This document shows, one piece after another, positions 3,239 through 35,463 of a stretch of 39,231 nt of DNA (positions are counted from its first letter, which is position 1; every line of letters starts with the position of its first letter). The stretch is from a virus, in IMG/VR virus record IMGVR_UViG_3300035698_003327, positions 1-39,231 of that record, one strand, 5' to 3'. Below the pieces are notes generated by a model, which was given only the letters and a program-made list of their open reading frames with translations, was not told where the DNA came from and did no database searches. Both the position numbers and the translations under genes were made by a program.

Positions 3239-5126
3239 AATTGCATATTTAACTAAGGTTGTAATTGATGGAGTTACAATTAAAGATGATTCTTCAACTG
3301 AAAATAAATTAGTTAGTTGGGAATATGAAAGAACAAGTGAGGCAGTTATTTCTCAGTTGACAATGAAAGTTCTGGCGTCTGCTTCTGATTTAGTTGATTT
3401 AACACCGGGAAAAACTGTACAAGTATGGGCCGGCTTTGCTACTTCTACTGATACTAAAATATTTGATGGTTTTATTTCTTCTGCAAGTCCTAAAGGTGGA
3501 ATCACTGAATTAGTTTGTGGAGATAAGATGTTGGATTTAGTTAGGAGAAATGTTAATAAGGTTTATGAGGATACTGGCCCAGAGGCAGGAGTTATCTCAG
3601 ATATTGCAAAAGATTTAATTGAGACTTATGGAGGTTTGACTGCAGATGTTACAGCCACAGGAACCTTAGATACTGAAACAATAGCAGAATTTAGGTGTGA
3701 TAATACAGACATCTGGGAGAGATTGAAAGCCTTAGCACAATCAGTTAATTATCAGATATTTTATGATGCAGTAAATGATACTGTACATTTTGAACCGATA
3801 GGATTTAATGATTCCGGATTAACTTTAACTGTAGGAACTGAGATTATTAATGCCCCCCAATGGTCAAATGATTTTAGTAGATTAATTAATGATTTAAGAG
3901 TGGACGGAGCAGTATCACAGACTCAAATTAGATTACCAAATGGATCAGGTGTTGGGCAAATTGACACAACGACAGATTTTGATACTGATGGGATTGTATT
4001 AACTAAAACTCCAGAGAATGTTGAGTTGATAATGGATGCAAGTAATCCTCCAGTAACTGTAACTATTGGAGGAACTAAAGATAGTACAACAGGAAACTTT
4101 TACTATGTTGATCGTGAAAATAAAACAATTAAGCCTGCAGTTGGGACTTCTTTTACTGTTGGACATTATGCGATCGTAAATTATACTTGGTTGGCGCCTA
4201 GTCCAATACATCAACTTAATCAAGATTCAATAGATACTTATGGAAGTTCAGAAAAGCAAATAACTTTAAGTGATATTCAAACAGTAGCAGATGCAGAAGT
4301 AAGAACTGCAGATATATTATCTAAATTTAGTCAACCATTTTTAGTTGGAGATTTTGTTTTAAAATCAAGTGCAACAGTAAGTTTGAATGTTGGAGATAAA
4401 GCAATAATAGTAGACTCAGTTAGTAATCCAAATATAAATCAAGAATTAGTTGTTACAAAGCAAGTAATGAGATACCCCGGAGAAAATCAAGAGGTAACGG
4501 TTGGAGATGAGTCTTTAAGACTTCAAGATTGGCAAATTAATGTAGAGGAAAGATTGAAAAGAATTGAAGAGCAATTATCTTTAAAGAATCAGGACCTAAT
4601 TTTAGAATTAAGAGATTTTGTACAACAAGTTTCTTCTTCTCCTAGATATAGAAAAGTTTTATCAAGAAATTTAAATGGTGATGGATTTATATTAGGTCAT
4701 TCTACCTTTGGAGTTTTAGGAACTAGTGCTTTAGGGCCTGATTCAGCTCCAGTTGCTTCAAATTATTATGTTCAACAATATTTAAATTCTTATGAAGAAA
4801 ACTTTATTGATTCTGATTTTAAAGATACTGAAACTAATTGTACTTGGGATGATGATGGATCAATTACTTTCACTTCAGGCCAAATTGCACAATCAACCTC
4901 AATAGATTTAAGAAATGGAACCATAACAAATGCAACTTTAACGAGTACAGAATTAAGTGGGGACTTTGATTATGAAATGACTGCGAATGGATCTGATTGG
5001 GAAGCTGTAACATCAGGAGTTGTACATGTTTTTACAGATACAGGAACAGATTTAAGATGGAGAGCAACAGAAAATAATACATCAACAGGAGAAATCTCTC
5101 AAATTAAAGTGGAGGATTATCATTGA
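3231..5126 (+). CDS. baseplate hub / tail-associated protein (gp27-like)
   Basis: 631 residues counted from GTG 3231, with an alternative start ATT 3240. The first ~200 residues look like the beta-barrel hub family: VVIDGVTIKDD, then TVQVWAGFA and FDGFISSA, then DKMLDLVRR and an ALAQSVNYQIFYD segment. The C-terminal third is a carbohydrate-binding-like beta domain after a coiled linker (about 425-455). It follows an HNH gene, whose last codons overlap the GTG. The sequence AAA ATT GCA after the G-rich site resembles the ATG GCA starts elsewhere in this genome, so AUU at 3240 may be the real start. Confidence 0.7.
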   Translation: MIKIAYLTKVVIDGVTIKDDSSTENKLVSWEYERTSEAVISQLTMKVLASASDLVDLTPGKTVQVWAGFATSTDTKIFDGFISSASPKGGITELVCGDKMLDLVRRNVNKVYEDTGPEAGVISDIAKDLIETYGGLTADVTATGTLDTETIAEFRCDNTDIWERLKALAQSVNYQIFYDAVNDTVHFEPIGFNDSGLTLTVGTEIINAPQWSNDFSRLINDLRVDGAVSQTQIRLPNGSGVGQIDTTTDFDTDGIVLTKTPENVELIMDASNPPVTVTIGGTKDSTTGNFYYVDRENKTIKPAVGTSFTVGHYAIVNYTWLAPSPIHQLNQDSIDTYGSSEKQITLSDIQTVADAEVRTADILSKFSQPFLVGDFVLKSSATVSLNVGDKAIIVDSVSNPNINQELVVTKQVMRYPGENQEVTVGDESLRLQDWQINVEERLKRIEEQLSLKNQDLILELRDFVQQVSSSPRYRKVLSRNLNGDGFILGHSTFGVLGTSALGPDSAPVASNYYVQQYLNSYEENFIDSDFKDTETNCTWDDDGSITFTSGQIAQSTSIDLRNGTITNATLTSTELSGDFDYEMTANGSDWEAVTSGVVHVFTDTGTDLRWRATENNTSTGEISQIKVEDYH

Positions 5127-5587: not shown

Positions 5588-6013
5588 ATGGCAAGTGAAA
5601 GAGATGAAAATGGAAGATTTGTAAAAGGACATAGTCTTGGAAAGAGATTTAAGAAAGGAGAAACTTCACTAAACAAAGGAAGAAGATACAAATGTAAATC
5701 TTATAATTTAACTGAAAAAGGTAAAGAACAAAAAATTAAAAATCTTGGTTCTTATGCTAAAAGATTAAATAGAAAATCAATAAATAAAAAGGGATATGTT
5801 ATTTCTTATCTTGGGAATAGTAGAACAGGTAGAGAACATATTTCTGTTTGGTTAAGGGCAAATCATTTACATAGGTTGCCAGATAATTGTTGTATACATC
5901 ACCTTGATTTAAATAAAACTAATAATAAAATAGAAAATTTGCAGTTAATGCCTATGTCTGACCATACATCATTTCATAGACAACTACAAATTGGAGGGTT
6001 AAAATTGCAGTAG
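5588..6013 (+). CDS. HNH endonuclease with NUMOD3-like N-terminus
   Basis: 141 residues. The basic repeats GRFVKGHSLGKRFKKGETSLNKG resemble NUMOD3 DNA-binding motifs. The HNH_3-type core follows: EHISVWL, CIHHLDLNKTNNKIENLQL, DHTSFH. It is paralogous to 35068. It sits directly behind a late promoter and RBS and starts ATGGCA. The following fibre gene starts inside its last codons at an apparent ATT GCA. This suggests the HNH gene took over the original promoter, RBS and start of the fibre gene. Confidence 0.88.
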   Translation: MASERDENGRFVKGHSLGKRFKKGETSLNKGRRYKCKSYNLTEKGKEQKIKNLGSYAKRLNRKSINKKGYVISYLGNSRTGREHISVWLRANHLHRLPDNCCIHHLDLNKTNNKIENLQLMPMSDHTSFHRQLQIGGLKLQ

Positions 6014-7643: not shown

Positions 7644-7937
7644 ATGGTGTTAAATTTTATTACAAAGAATTTTAATAGTAGAAGAAAAGAACAAGCAAGA
7701 AAGTTAAGGGAAGCATATAAAAATAATACTAATGGTTATCGAGATAAGTGTAAGGCAAGAAGAATTGCTCAAGCTTATATGAAAGTAAAAATGGGTGTAT
7801 GTTATTTTTGTAAAAACGCAACAATAGAAATGCACCATCCAGATTATTCTAAACCGATATTAGTTTATCCAGTTTGCAAAAAATGCCATAATAAATTACA
7901 CACTTTAATTACTTTAAATAAGGAGAAGAAAAAATGA
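7644..7937 (+). CDS. HNH endonuclease
   Basis: 97 residues. A basic helical N-terminus (RRKEQARKLREAYKNN) is followed by CYFCKN, IEMHHPDYSKP and CKKCHNKLH, the standard zinc-finger HNH core. It is the first gene behind the operator-rich promoter and has no Shine-Dalgarno, consistent with a leaderless mRNA. It could be a homing nuclease or a domesticated one, given its own tightly regulated promoter. Confidence 0.85.
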   Translation: MVLNFITKNFNSRRKEQARKLREAYKNNTNGYRDKCKARRIAQAYMKVKMGVCYFCKNATIEMHHPDYSKPILVYPVCKKCHNKLHTLITLNKEKKK

Positions 7938-8905: not shown

Positions 8906-8999
8906 GGCGGGTATGGTAAGAAGCAGCTGACCTTTTTTTGTTTGACTCTTAACTTACATTGAAAGAGAAGCACTAGGGGTTCGACTCCCTTCCTCGCCA
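8906..8999 (+). tRNA. putative tRNA with an insertion in the anticodon loop
   Basis: 94 bases. The acceptor ends (GGCGGGT and CCTCGCC plus A) pair at six of seven positions with one G-U. The T arm is clear (AGGGG-TTCGACT-CCCTT). An anticodon stem TTTTT/GAGAA (8933-8937 with 8965-8969) leaves a 27-base loop, so about 20 bases may be an intron. The spliced loop would then read TTGTTAA, anticodon GTT (Asn), but another alignment gives TGT. The D arm is irregular. Either a functional spliced tRNA or a degenerate one. Confidence 0.5.
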
Positions 9000-9042
9000 A
9001 TATAGCAGGGTAGATTAGTTTGGTTAAATCGCTGGCCTCATA

Positions 9043-9357
9043 AAACAAATGGTAAGAACAAATAAACAAAAACAAAACGATAAGAGATACAGAGAGAAAT
9101 TCAATAAGGAGAAACAAATCTTTTATTCCCAAGTTGGCATAAAATGTGCAATTTGTGGTTCTAAAAAACGACTTGTTTGTCACAGAAAGAGTTTTGAAAA
9201 GCATGAAAGAATTGCTAATTTAAGCCGTCCAAAACTATTGGATGAAAAGATTAGTGATTATGTAAGGCTATGTTATCCGTGTCATTTTGGTACCCATTGG
9301 GTACATAAGTTTTTTGGATTATCATGGAAGCAGATTTTAAATTTGCTTATTTGAGAA
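9043..9357 (+). other. archaeal-type tRNA intron (bulge-helix-bulge junction)
   Basis: 315 bases between nucleotides 37 and 38 of the Met tRNA. The junction bulges TAA (9041-9043) and AAA (9356-9358) flank the helix CTCA (9037-9040) with TGAG (9352-9355). Run of A bases makes the exact cut uncertain by a base. Almost the whole intron is filled by an open reading frame, 9049-9354. Confidence 0.75.
9049..9354 (+). CDS. tRNA-intron-encoded HNH homing endonuclease
   Basis: 101 residues. A basic start (MVRTNKQKQNDKRYREKFNKEK) is followed by CAICGSKKRLVCHRKSFEKH and VRLCYPCHFGTHWVHKFF, the Cys/His frame of an HNH nuclease. The ATG lies six bases inside the intron and the TGA lies in the paired TGAG at the 3' splice helix. 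Presumably it spreads the intron into intronless tRNA-Met genes of viruses or hosts. No RBS is visible. Confidence 0.85.
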   Translation: MVRTNKQKQNDKRYREKFNKEKQIFYSQVGIKCAICGSKKRLVCHRKSFEKHERIANLSRPKLLDEKISDYVRLCYPCHFGTHWVHKFFGLSWKQILNLLI

Positions 9358-9405
9358 AGCCAGAGACCGATGGTTCAAATCCATCCCTTGCTATTTCAAT
9401 GATTT

Positions 9406-9780: not shown

Positions 9781-10008
9781 ATGATTGGAAGAATAAATAA
9801 AAAGAACAATATGATCAGTTTTAGGGCCAAGGGACTGGACCCGCGCGTATTACAACATTTAGACACGGAGTTCATTATCAAATCAATCAATCATTATTAT
9901 TTTTATTATTTTCATATTAAACAATTTTTAAGGCAAATTATTAAATTGAATTTTGGAACGATTAGGCATTTATTGAGAAAAGAGGGGAGAAGAAGAAATG
10001 AATTATAA
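9781..10008 (+). CDS. hypothetical basic protein
   Basis: 75 residues, basic, with an aromatic middle (HYYFYYFHIKQFLRQ) and a basic end (RHLLRKEGRRRNEL). It overlaps the following HNH gene by 11 bases. Its promoter carries tandem repeats, so it may be a DNA-binding autoregulator, but no helix-turn-helix can be confidently drawn. Confidence 0.4.
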   Translation: MIGRINKKNNMISFRAKGLDPRVLQHLDTEFIIKSINHYYFYYFHIKQFLRQIIKLNFGTIRHLLRKEGRRRNEL

Positions 10009-10315
10009 AAAATATATTAAAAGTAAGAATTGGAGGGAAAAAGCAAAAAAGTTTAGAGAATCAGTAGGAGAATGTGAAAGATGTGGTAGTAAAACAAAAA
10101 AGATTAATGCACACCATTTGAATTATAATAATTTAGGAAATGAAACCCAAGAAGATATTGAAATATTATGTGATAGGTGTCATTTAATTGCTCATAATAA
10201 AATAAGATTTCCTTGTAAACAGGTAAGGGTAAAGAGAATAATATCAACAAAACAAAAAGATGAAAATTGGAAAGAAATATCAAAAACATTAAGTCACAAG
10301 GTTTTATTAAGATGA
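9998..10315 (+). CDS. HNH endonuclease
   Basis: 105 residues with the classic short HNH plan: YKKYIKSKNWREKAKKF, CERCGSKTKKINAHHLNYNNLGNE, DIEILCDRCHLIAH. The zinc cysteines and both catalytic-region histidines are present. The start is preceded by GGGGAGAAGAAGAA. A freestanding mobile nuclease is most likely; HNH packaging nucleases normally sit near terminase, which this one does not. Confidence 0.88.
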   Translation: MNYKKYIKSKNWREKAKKFRESVGECERCGSKTKKINAHHLNYNNLGNETQEDIEILCDRCHLIAHNKIRFPCKQVRVKRIISTKQKDENWKEISKTLSHKVLLR

Positions 10316-16353: not shown

Positions 16354-16514
16354 AATGCCCTTATAAAAAACTAAAGAAATGTACTAATAAATATGTTGTT
16401 GAGGACTATAGGAGATGTCCACATAAAAATAAATTAGAATGTCCGTTGTTTATTGATTGGATAAATAATTATAAAAAAAATGGAAAAGCCGAAAACAAAA
16501 GGGCAGTGGTATGA
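16350..16514 (+). CDS. Cys-rich micro-protein
   Basis: 54 residues: MKCPYKKLKKCTNKYVVEDYRRCPHKNKLECPLFIDWINN. Five Cys/His positions suggest a zinc site. It overlaps the following HNH gene by 35 bases, and its C-terminal 15 residues have poor composition, so the HNH gene may have truncated or extended it. Confidence 0.45.
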   Translation: MKCPYKKLKKCTNKYVVEDYRRCPHKNKLECPLFIDWINNYKKNGKAENKRAVV

Positions 16515-16833
16515 ATTTAAAAAACTAATATTTGATTTAGATAATAAACCATTAATTAAAGATTCTGATATTAGGAAAATAATAAATCCAAAAGTTAGAG
16601 AGAGAGATAATTTTGAATGTTTTTTTTGTTGTAGAAATATTTTTGATGTAAATGAGATGTATGACTTTGGATGTTCAACAATCCATCATAAGATTCCTTT
16701 GAGGTATAGTGGAGAACATGAGGAAGATAATTTAATAACTGTTTGTCATGAGTGTCACATGAAATTAGAACACTTGATTTCATTAGTAGAAGATAAAGCA
16801 ATTAAATTTACCTTTAATTTTATGAACAAATGA
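16480..16833 (+). CDS. HNH endonuclease
   Basis: 117 residues. VRERDNFECFFCCRNIFDV, CSTIHHKIPLRYSGEHEEDNLITVCHECHMKLEHL form a full HNH motif with the IHH dyad at about 68. It lies just before rusA, whose start overlaps its stop by four bases. A paralogous homing gene rather than part of the resolvase. Confidence 0.88.
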   Translation: MEKPKTKGQWYEFKKLIFDLDNKPLIKDSDIRKIINPKVRERDNFECFFCCRNIFDVNEMYDFGCSTIHHKIPLRYSGEHEEDNLITVCHECHMKLEHLISLVEDKAIKFTFNFMNK

Positions 16834-19341: not shown

Positions 19342-19959
19342 ATGAAGATACTTAATCTATATGCAGGAATTGGAGGGAATCGAAAACTCTGGAAAGGGCA
19401 CGAAGTCACTGCAATAGAAAATAATAAAGAAATAGCAGTAATTTACAAGGCATTATATCCAAATGATACAGTGATCATAACAGATGCCCATCAATATTTA
19501 TTAGATCATTATAAAGAATTTGATTTTATATGGTCCTCTCCACCTTGCCAAACACACTCAAGCTTTAGAAAGAATATATGTGTAAGGTTTAGAGGAACAG
19601 AACCAAAATATCCTGATATGACATTGTATCAAGAGATTATATTCTTAAAAACTCATTTTGAAGGATTATGGGTTGTAGAAAATGTTAAACCCTATTATAT
19701 TCCTTTAATAGATGCTTCAACAGTTATTGATAGACATTTATTTTGGAGTAATTTTCCAATAAAAGAAAGCAAGATCAAGAGGGAATATTGGATCAGGCAT
19801 AGTCAAATAAAACAATTACAAGAGATGCATGGAATTGATTTATCAAAATATAAGATTAAAAATAAAAGGCAAGTATTAAGAAATTGTGTTTTACCTAAAT
19901 TAGGCGCACATATAATTAAATCTGCATTAAATTTTAACAAACTTAACAAAAATGACTAA
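19342..19959 (+). CDS. C5-cytosine DNA methyltransferase (short)
   Basis: 205 residues. Motif I ILNLYAGIGGNRKLW, motif IV with the catalytic Cys in WSSPPCQTHSSF (about 68), and motif VI WVVENVKPYY are all present; the C-terminal part is too short for a full target recognition domain. Phage relatives of this length exist. It probably methylates cytosine at a short site. Overlaps the small terminase by 8 bases. Confidence 0.8.
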   Translation: MKILNLYAGIGGNRKLWKGHEVTAIENNKEIAVIYKALYPNDTVIITDAHQYLLDHYKEFDFIWSSPPCQTHSSFRKNICVRFRGTEPKYPDMTLYQEIIFLKTHFEGLWVVENVKPYYIPLIDASTVIDRHLFWSNFPIKESKIKREYWIRHSQIKQLQEMHGIDLSKYKIKNKRQVLRNCVLPKLGAHIIKSALNFNKLNKND

Positions 19960-20308
19960 AATTACAAAGGAGAAGTTCGCAAAAGCATTATCAGGAACAG
20001 GCGGGATAATGATGAAGATAGCTGAAAATTTAGGATGTTCAAGGCAAGCAGTATTTTATTTCTGTCAAAAGTACGCAGATATAGAACAAGCAAGATTAGA
20101 TGAAGAAGAGAAGATTTTAGATATTGGAGAGAACTCATTATTTGCAAAAGCCAAAGCAGGAGAACCTTGGGCAGTTAAAATGTTATTAAGTACTAAAGGT
20201 AAAAAAAGAGGATATGTTGAAAAGAAAGAACTACAAGTGGAAGCAAATATAACTGATACTTTAACTAAAGCACAATTAGATGCAGCAGTTAAAAGATTAA
20301 CAAAATAG
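19952..20308 (+). CDS. terminase small subunit
   Basis: 118 residues. An N-terminal helix-turn-helix (KEKFAKALSGTGGIMMKIAENLGCSRQAVFYFCQKY) is followed by helices and a segment typical of small terminases (SLFAKAKAGEPWAVKMLLSTKGKKRGY). It lies upstream of the large terminase, separated by a tRNA-like and a structured RNA element. The stop TAG shares its G with the first base of the tRNA-like element. Confidence 0.8.
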   Translation: MTKITKEKFAKALSGTGGIMMKIAENLGCSRQAVFYFCQKYADIEQARLDEEEKILDIGENSLFAKAKAGEPWAVKMLLSTKGKKRGYVEKKELQVEANITDTLTKAQLDAAVKRLTK

Positions 20309-20377
20309 GCCGTGTGGATTAGTGGTAAGTCGTTTGAGTCGCTCTCATTCACGGAGGTTCGATTCCTTCCTCGGCCA
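20308..20377 (+). tRNA. tRNA-like element, identity uncertain
   Basis: 70 bases. Acceptor GGCCGTG/CTCGGCC pairs six of seven, discriminator A; D stem GATT/AGTC with AGTGGTA loop; T arm GGAGG-TTCGATT-CCTTC. The anticodon stem is poor: only TGA/TCA pairs with two U-U mismatches, and by position the anticodon would be CGC with a non-standard G32 and U37. The variable loop is three bases. A decayed tRNA or a tRNA mimic is possible. It could also be a processing signal between the terminase genes. Confidence 0.55.
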
Positions 20378-22430: not shown

Positions 22431-22555
22431 TGGATAAAAAAATATTACATTACTTAGAAGAATTATGTATTTGTTATAATCAACAGTTAGGGCCAATTTG
22501 TTCTTATCATTTTTTAAAGATGAAGAAAATAGCAGAGAGGTTAGCAGATGAATAA
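22427..22555 (+). CDS. hypothetical micro-protein
   Basis: 42 residues (MMDKKILHYLEELCICYNQQ ... MKKIAERLADE), helical with three Cys and two His. Overlaps the genes on both sides by a few bases, which supports it as coupled and real. Confidence 0.45.
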   Translation: MMDKKILHYLEELCICYNQQLGPICSYHFLKMKKIAERLADE

Positions 22556-22907
22556 TGCACGCGTTCATTATCCTAATATCTGTCTTGACTGTGGTAAGGG
22601 AATACAGGCAGCCAATAAACGTTGTAGAGAATGTTTCAAAGAAAGTATAAAAGGTAAGAAAAATATTAATTGGAAAGGTAGTAATGTTAGTTATATTTCG
22701 CTCCATCAATGGGTAAGAACAAATAAACCAATTCCATTATGTTGTGAGAAGTGTGGAAAAAAGAAAAGTTTAGATGCGGCTAATATTTCAGGAGAATACA
22801 AAAGAGATTTAAGGGATTGGTGTTATTTATGTAGAAGTTGTCATATGAAAGATGATGGGAGAATTAATAATTTAAAACAATTTAGAGGCAAAGATGGACG
22901 CAGCTAG
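22548..22907 (+). CDS. HNH endonuclease
   Basis: 119 residues. CLDCGKGIQAANKRCRECF forms an N-terminal zinc knuckle, KGKKNINWKG is NUMOD3-like, and CEKCGKKKSLDAANISGEYKRDLRDWCYLCRSCHMKDDGR is the nuclease core, of the type in which Asn-Ile and CHMK-D-R are conserved. The first residues (ARVHY) match those of the next gene at 22894, suggesting it inserted at that gene's start. Confidence 0.85.
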   Translation: MNNARVHYPNICLDCGKGIQAANKRCRECFKESIKGKKNINWKGSNVSYISLHQWVRTNKPIPLCCEKCGKKKSLDAANISGEYKRDLRDWCYLCRSCHMKDDGRINNLKQFRGKDGRS

Positions 22908-35067: not shown

Positions 35068-35463
35068 ATGACATTTAAAAAAGGACAAACTGCTTGGAAT
35101 AAGGGAAAAGGGATGTCTGATGAGACTAAAATAAAGTTAAGTAATTCATTAAAAGGAAGAAAAGCTTGGAATAAAGGTAAAAAATTTTCAAAAGAAATTA
35201 GACAAAAAATAAGTGAGGCACATTCACTTCCAGAAAATTCAACAAGATTAACTGATAAAGGATATAAATTAATTAAAAAGAAAAAAAGATGGATTAAAGA
35301 GCATCATTTAATTTGGTGCAAAGCTAATAATTTTTATAGGATTCCAAGAGGTTGTGTAATCCATCATTTAAATTTAATAAAGACAGACAATAGGATAGAA
35401 AATTTGCAGTTATTAGACAATGGGACACATTCTACATTTCATAACAATTTAAGGAGTTTATAA
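35068..35463 (+). CDS. HNH endonuclease with NUMOD3 repeats
   Basis: 131 residues. Two NUMOD3-like repeats (FKKGQTAWNKGKGMSDETKIKLS and GRKAWNKGKKFSKEIRQKISEAH) precede an HNH_3 core (KEHHLIWCKAN, CVIHHLNLIKTDNRIENLQLL, HSTFH). Close to 5588 in the core. It follows a late promoter and supplies RBS AAGGAG to the next gene, whose ATG overlaps its stop. Confidence 0.9.
   Translation: MTFKKGQTAWNKGKGMSDETKIKLSNSLKGRKAWNKGKKFSKEIRQKISEAHSLPENSTRLTDKGYKLIKKKKRWIKEHHLIWCKANNFYRIPRGCVIHHLNLIKTDNRIENLQLLDNGTHSTFHNNLRSL

Follow-up and report, generated by a model that had tools for sequence, protein, structure and literature searches.

An HNH gene within a probable archaeal-type intron of a viral initiator-like tRNA gene

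An initiator-like tRNA(CAT) gene, carried by what appears to be a virus of DPANN archaea, is interrupted by an insert that is most likely an archaeal BHB tRNA intron with a homing-type HNH gene inside it. The gene lies in a 39,231-bp IMG/VR virus record (IMGVR_UViG_3300035698_003327), the whole of which was analysed and is referred to here as the window. The anatomy of the interrupted gene, the conservation of its tRNA, the BHB layout of its junctions, the homology of the encoded protein to HNH proteins, and the recurrence of the arrangement in two tRNA genes are established at the level of sequence. Splicing of the intron, translation of its gene, cleavage of DNA by the product, and homing are inferred.

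Archaeal tRNA introns are regarded as short, non-coding elements of unknown mobility, and their origin and spread remain an open question. A tRNA intron that contains a nuclease gene, present both in a virus and in a chromosome, provides a testable route by which such introns may be gained, namely the insertion of a homing element followed by loss of its ORF, which would leave a short intron behind, together with transfer by viruses.

The interrupted tRNA gene

The 5′ exon (positions 9004..9042, plus strand) contains the 5′ strand of the acceptor stem, the D arm, the 5′ strand of the anticodon stem, and CTCATA at tRNA positions 32–37. The 3′ exon (9358..9393, plus strand) contains A38, the 3′ strand of the anticodon stem, the variable loop, the T arm, the 3′ strand of the acceptor stem, and the discriminator A. 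Both exons are supported by ARAGORN on the spliced sequence, which reads the 75 nt of the joined exons as tRNA-Met(CAT), and by alignment with host initiator tRNAs. The spliced tRNA aligned without gaps to 11 initiator tRNAs that lack introns, all from genomes of the Woesearchaeota order, and all 21 cloverleaf pairs (21/21) were kept in each of the sequences (12/12). Two pairs that span the intron were changed on both sides in the window tRNA, A4:U71 replacing G:C and C33:G41 replacing G:C (numbered by alignment columns). The two segments are a single tRNA gene. A preliminary description, made before any database was searched, had placed the exons at 9004–9042 and 9358–9393 and had read from them a complete tRNA with anticodon CAT; both claims held. 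The refutation that it had named, in which the halves belong to two separate fragments, was not borne out, as they align gap-free as one tRNA with 7/7 acceptor pairs.

The further remark in that description that the tRNA looks like an initiator held only in part. The window tRNA shares A1:U72 with archaeal initiators and matches five host initiators at 54–57 of its 75 positions, compared to 34–51 for five other host tRNAs, but its D-loop is elongator-like and it retains two of the three initiator anticodon-stem G:C pairs, with C31:G39 in place of the third. Because of these last two features the tRNA is probably best called initiator-like, and no firmer label is justified.

An HNH-filled intron of this kind defeats tRNA-finding programs. 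With introns enabled, ARAGORN detected the gene in the unspliced window, misplaced the splice site, and called it Leu(GAG), and because of the insert the Rfam tRNA model did not report the interrupted tRNA-Met in the raw window.

Other tRNA-like sequences were found in the window. Just upstream, at 8906–8999, lies a second tRNA-like element with a good T arm (AGGGG TTCGACT CCCTT) and a 5′ end, GGCGGG, that matches its CCTCGCCA end; its D and anticodon arms are not acceptable, and no Rfam tRNA match was obtained for it at E values up to 10. It could be a tRNA that has decayed or that is interrupted in an unusual way, and its identity may be Lys-CTT. A permuted or split tRNA, in which the half beginning at 9004 would join an upstream 3′ half at 8960–8999, was considered and rejected, as AGCAGGG is left unpaired with CCTCGCC and pairs 7/7 with CCTTGCT. 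A tRNA-Ala(CGC) gene lies at 20308–20377, just before the terminase gene, and overlaps the upstream ORF at 19952–20308 by one base, the first of the gene and the last of the ORF.

The intron and its splice motif

The intron is 315 nt long (9043..9357, plus strand) and occupies the canonical site between positions 37 and 38. It is defined by its BHB layout and by the fold of the pre-tRNA, and introns in Woesearchaeota initiator genes share both its position and its CTCA/TGAG helix. In the 5′ half of the motif (9037..9043, plus strand), the central-helix strand CTCA (9037–9040) is followed by the bulge TA-A (9041–9043; the hyphen marks the cut, after 9042). In the 3′ half (9352..9358, plus strand), which is supported by the fold and by the layout of host initiators, the strand TGAG (9352–9355) is followed by the bulge AA-A (9356–9358; cut after 9357). 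A weak inner helix, read from the sequence, would pair AACAA (9044..9048, plus strand) with TTATT (9347–9351) through 4 of 5 possible pairs.

In the ensemble of the full 390-nt pre-tRNA, the anticodon stem (9032–9036 with 9359–9363) forms with pair probabilities of 0.96–0.97 and the central BHB helix with probabilities of 0.73–0.90, while the inner helix remains unformed in the global fold. Given the base composition of the intron, the chance of a 4-bp helix at the exact spacing is about 0.006. Sequence and fold together show a BHB motif that is complete up to its bulges and relaxed on the intron side; that it is spliced is an inference. The 315-base insert at 37/38, the CTCA/TGAG helix, and the three-base bulges of the preliminary description thus stood up to the folding that it had named as a check, apart from the weakness of the inner helix. 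As to other types of intron, a group I intron in the insert was rejected when Rfam group I models gave no match even at E values up to 10, and no Rfam family of any kind was found in the insert.

The HNH reading frame

The intron contains an ORF (9049..9354, plus strand) for a 101-aa HNH-type protein. It starts 6 nt into the intron, and the stop codon, TGA, lies inside the TGAG strand of the 3′ BHB helix, so that 3 nt remain at the 3′ side; an HNH ORF with these limits had been claimed in advance and was confirmed by a match to PHROGs phage HNH families (best E 6.8e-5) and by the chromosomal homologue described below. Among 5000 dinucleotide shuffles, one gave an ORF of this length. The protein was not matched by any Pfam or NCBIfam model.

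The invariant HNH residues are C33, C36, H45, C75, C78, H79, and H83, and the window protein possesses all of the expected elements, that is, the two CxxC pairs of the zinc ribbon, the catalytic His45, and the C-terminal CHxxxH. The residue preceding the catalytic His is Cys in the window protein, Tyr in the chromosomal homologue, and His in phage relatives, so the usual Asp/His metal ligand is missing from the first two, and the middle Asn of the HNH motif is absent from the same two proteins. Judged from sequence alone, it is uncertain whether either protein is an active nuclease, and the main reason for caution is the unusual residue that precedes the catalytic His. A single-sequence structure prediction of the window protein (pLDDT 47) was too poor for use.

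Homing-type nucleases are abundant in this virus, which has at least six more HNH-like ORFs (5588–6013, 7644–7937, 9998–10315, 16480–16833, 22548–22907, and 35068–35463), two of which resemble NUMOD3/HNH_3 homing genes.

A second example in a chromosomal tRNA-Gly gene

When the window HNH protein was compared with 371 DPANN genomes of the same phylum, one strong match was obtained (E 3.1e-11), at the locus designated L202. ARAGORN, run independently, found there a tRNA-Gly(TCC) gene with a 283-nt intron at 37/38, exactly around the homologous HNH ORF of 91 aa (35%, E 2e-12), which fills the insert; the spliced sequence was again read as tRNA-Gly(TCC). The neighbourhood is chromosomal, with ORFs that read as sugar-nucleotide enzymes, a glycosyltransferase, and an ABC transporter. 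Because a homologous HNH gene occurs independently in a chromosomal tRNA-Gly(TCC), what would have been a single curiosity becomes a type of element, and the earlier proposal of a new kind of mobile element is supported to that extent, with mobility and splicing only inferred.

At the L202 junction, an outer helix ATCTGC/GCAGAT (6 bp) is followed by the bulge CA-G, the central helix CTTC/GAAG, and the bulge TG-A, and an inner helix AGGTTT/AAACCT has 6 of 6 pairs by reading and forms in a fold with a shortened intron. By reading of the sequence, this BHB motif is complete and canonical. Thermodynamic folds of the full and shortened pre-tRNAs preferred other pairings of the anticodon arm over the BHB motif, and the fold of the spliced tRNA likewise preferred other pairings in that arm. 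The ATG lies 8 nt into the intron, and the 3′ bulge itself serves as the stop codon, which straddles the 3′ splice site; the excised intron would therefore carry the stop without its final base, which favours translation from the precursor in this case. Neither the tRNA model nor a similarity search revealed another tRNA-Gly(TCC) in the L202 assembly. Since this is the only copy found, the cell would depend on splicing it, and the inference that the tRNA must be spliced holds provided that the assembly is not missing another copy.

The virus and its host

The viral setting claimed in the preliminary description held, as the record contains terminase, portal, SU10-type capsid, and tail genes. 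In IMG/VR, 68 relatives of the capsid gene were found, and scanning the alignment of these relatives against GTDB genomes led to five MAGs, of which two belong to Woesearchaeota, one belongs to Nanoarchaeota, one is labelled only "archaeon", and one is a WOR-3 bacterium. MAG binning is error-prone as evidence of host, yet four archaeal bins concur on carrying capsid relatives. One MAG with a capsid relative (L094) has an 18-nt intron at 37/38 in its own initiator gene. Furthermore, short 37/38 introns in initiator genes of Woesearchaeota-order genomes (e.g., L132, L133, L135, L136, and L137) have the same layout of CTCA...TGAG, 3-nt bulge, and CCC.

Related viral contigs also carry interrupted tRNA genes. 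In one (L074/L146; capsid 61%), a canonical BHB intron of 99 nt interrupts a tRNA-Glu(CTC) gene (1501–1672 of L146, IMGVR_UViG_3300025308_000337, minus strand). Another (L070) has an initiator-like tRNA with an insert of about 65 nt at 37/38 (3965–4106 of IMGVR_UViG_3300028840_002151), which ARAGORN miscalled as Ser(CGA) and in which a clear 4-bp central helix was not found. Because capsid relatives occur in archaeal MAGs and related viral contigs carry BHB or 37/38 tRNA inserts, the best reading is that the virus is a tailed virus of DPANN (Woesearchaeota-like) archaea with BHB splicing, with the reservation that binning can err. The archaeal character earlier ascribed to the intron is thereby supported, the Woesearchaeota and Nanoarchaeota MAGs with capsid relatives being independent evidence of host. 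In the absence of transcript data, splicing of introns of this layout by the host is an inference, though a very likely one, since Woesearchaeota initiator genes share the layout and capsid relatives lie in Woesearchaeota and Nanoarchaeota MAGs.

Two further features were seen in related viruses. In the closest relative, about 1 kb interrupts the terminase gene between residues 78 and 79 (2530–3513 of L006, IMGVR_UViG_3300033144_002476) and is a candidate intron. What looks like a permuted tRNA gene is present in a related DPANN virus, where the 3′ half comes immediately before a matching 5′ half (1520–1595 of L154, IMGVR_UViG_3300032731_000128), with a 7-bp acceptor (GAGGGAG/CTCTCTC) and a 5-bp anticodon stem (CCGGC/GCCGG).

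Relatives of the HNH gene and empty alleles

No close HNH relatives were found in IMG/VR, whether the query was the window protein, that of L202, or an alignment of the two, and none were found in plasmids or elsewhere in the order of the L202 genome. In Woesearchaeota-order genomes, the window protein and the two-row profile gave weak matches only, none with a surrounding tRNA. Distant phage relatives (crAss001 and S-RIM2) lie between tRNA genes, and their ends overlap the next tRNA by 10–14 nt. The HNH lineage is thus tRNA-associated; a position inside a tRNA was seen only in DPANN, where BHB splicing exists.

The check for empty and occupied alleles proposed in the preliminary description gave an occupied gene, the chromosomal tRNA-Gly(TCC), and no close empty allele of the viral tRNA-Met. 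Intron-less CAT and Gly(TCC) tRNAs are present in relatives. A search of IMG/VR for exact patterns of the 5′ exon and of TGAG-type 3′ junctions returned nothing, and a pattern search for empty sites yielded 32 CAT tRNAs, the best of which matched the window tRNA at 58/75 positions. Since no intron-less allele of the same viral tRNA was found, homing is not demonstrated.

Proposed mechanism and alternative explanations

In the mechanism proposed, the host tRNA-splicing endonuclease would cut in the two 3-nt bulges and the RtcB ligase would join the exons into a normal tRNA, so that the insertion would be tolerated. Translation of the HNH ORF would take place either before splicing, on the precursor, or afterwards, with the excised intron serving as a near-leaderless mRNA. 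The protein would then most likely cut the DNA of an intron-less tRNA gene in its anticodon arm, and repair would copy the intron into the break, by analogy with the LAGLIDADG enzymes of archaeal rRNA introns. A bolder reading, which taken as a whole may as easily be wrong as right, posits a class of protein-coding mobile tRNA introns common to DPANN archaea and their viruses. In that reading the element would be a single HNH gene whose two ends double as splice signals, its excision would both restore the tRNA and free the nuclease mRNA, and the HNH protein would spread the element among different tRNA genes.

Several alternatives were considered. In the first, a small HNH-like gene would have settled in a BHB tRNA intron without being a homing nuclease, a role that it either lost or never had; its product would be degenerate or would bind DNA or RNA, and the intron would be inherited vertically or travel with the virus instead of homing. 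In favour of this are the unusual residue that precedes the catalytic His of each protein, the missing middle Asn, the lack of an empty allele of the same gene, and the very sparse distribution. However, one lineage occupies the same site of two tRNA genes that are unrelated, with the same design of an ORF filling the intron, and this requires movement; the frame is still open in both the window and L202, and the distant phage relatives adjoin tRNA genes as free-standing homing genes do, which leaves this alternative unlikely. It is less probable still, and very unlikely, that a free-standing HNH gene broke a viral tRNA that is now a pseudogene, with the BHB-like pairing a coincidence. This alternative can draw on the weakness of the inner BHB helix, on the degenerate element at 8906–8999 just upstream, and on the point that a virus whose host provides the tRNA can do without a copy of it. 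Against this stand the full set of 21 pairs with matched changes across both exons, the exact 37/38 position, the low chance of the central helix, and the full BHB motif in a chromosomal tRNA-Gly(TCC) that is apparently the only one.

Group I introns with homing genes are known from tRNA anticodon loops of bacteria (review, PMC3984707), and a small self-splicing group I-like intron, as in bacteria and phages, might be supposed here as well. This possibility is all but excluded: no group I family matched at permissive thresholds, the 6 nt and 3 nt left by the ORF give no room for a ribozyme core, and the BHB layout and the DPANN host point to splicing by proteins. A BHB intron with a homing-type HNH gene remains the preferred reading.

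Comparison with known systems

Archaeal tRNA introns have been reported at 11–129 nt (PMC4090602). Accounts of canonical 37/38 introns mention no protein-coding one, and the introns of tRNA-Trp hold C/D box RNA (PMC4090602, PMC6379350). No report of a protein-coding archaeal tRNA intron, or of an archaeal tRNA intron with an HNH gene, was found in the open-access literature searched, a scope that excludes most subscription journals. The intron described here resembles the canonical class in its position, its BHB motif, its presumed processing by EndA and RtcB, and, in the case of Woesearchaeota initiators, its CTCA/TGAG helix; it differs in being 315 nt long and protein-coding.

Free-standing HNH genes of phages (crAss001 and Synechococcus phage S-RIM2) share with it a distant HNH homology and an association with tRNA, but they are found in the spaces between intact tRNA genes, where they run into the 5′ end of the following gene, and not inside a tRNA. 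The group I introns of archaeal rRNA that encode LAGLIDADG enzymes likewise combine an intron with a homing endonuclease in DPANN; 39 archaeal group I introns have been reported, all in rRNA and with LAGLIDADG, none with HNH (PMC6125680). Those introns are catalytic, whereas no group I structure is present here.

The closest parallel in design is found in archaeal BHB introns of rRNA, in which homing genes are of the LAGLIDADG type (16S and 23S; Thermoproteales and others; PMC4496867). These are also spliced by proteins, encode a homing-type endonuclease, and are likely mobile. In the present case, by contrast, the host gene is a tRNA, the nuclease is of the HNH type, the hosts are a DPANN archaeon and a virus, and the ORF fills nearly the whole of a 283–315 nt intron. 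An HNH-encoding tRNA intron is therefore likely to be a previously undescribed and probably mobile element, its homing being inferred, and what is new relative to the known BHB introns of the homing type would be the class of host gene, the nuclease family, and the size class.
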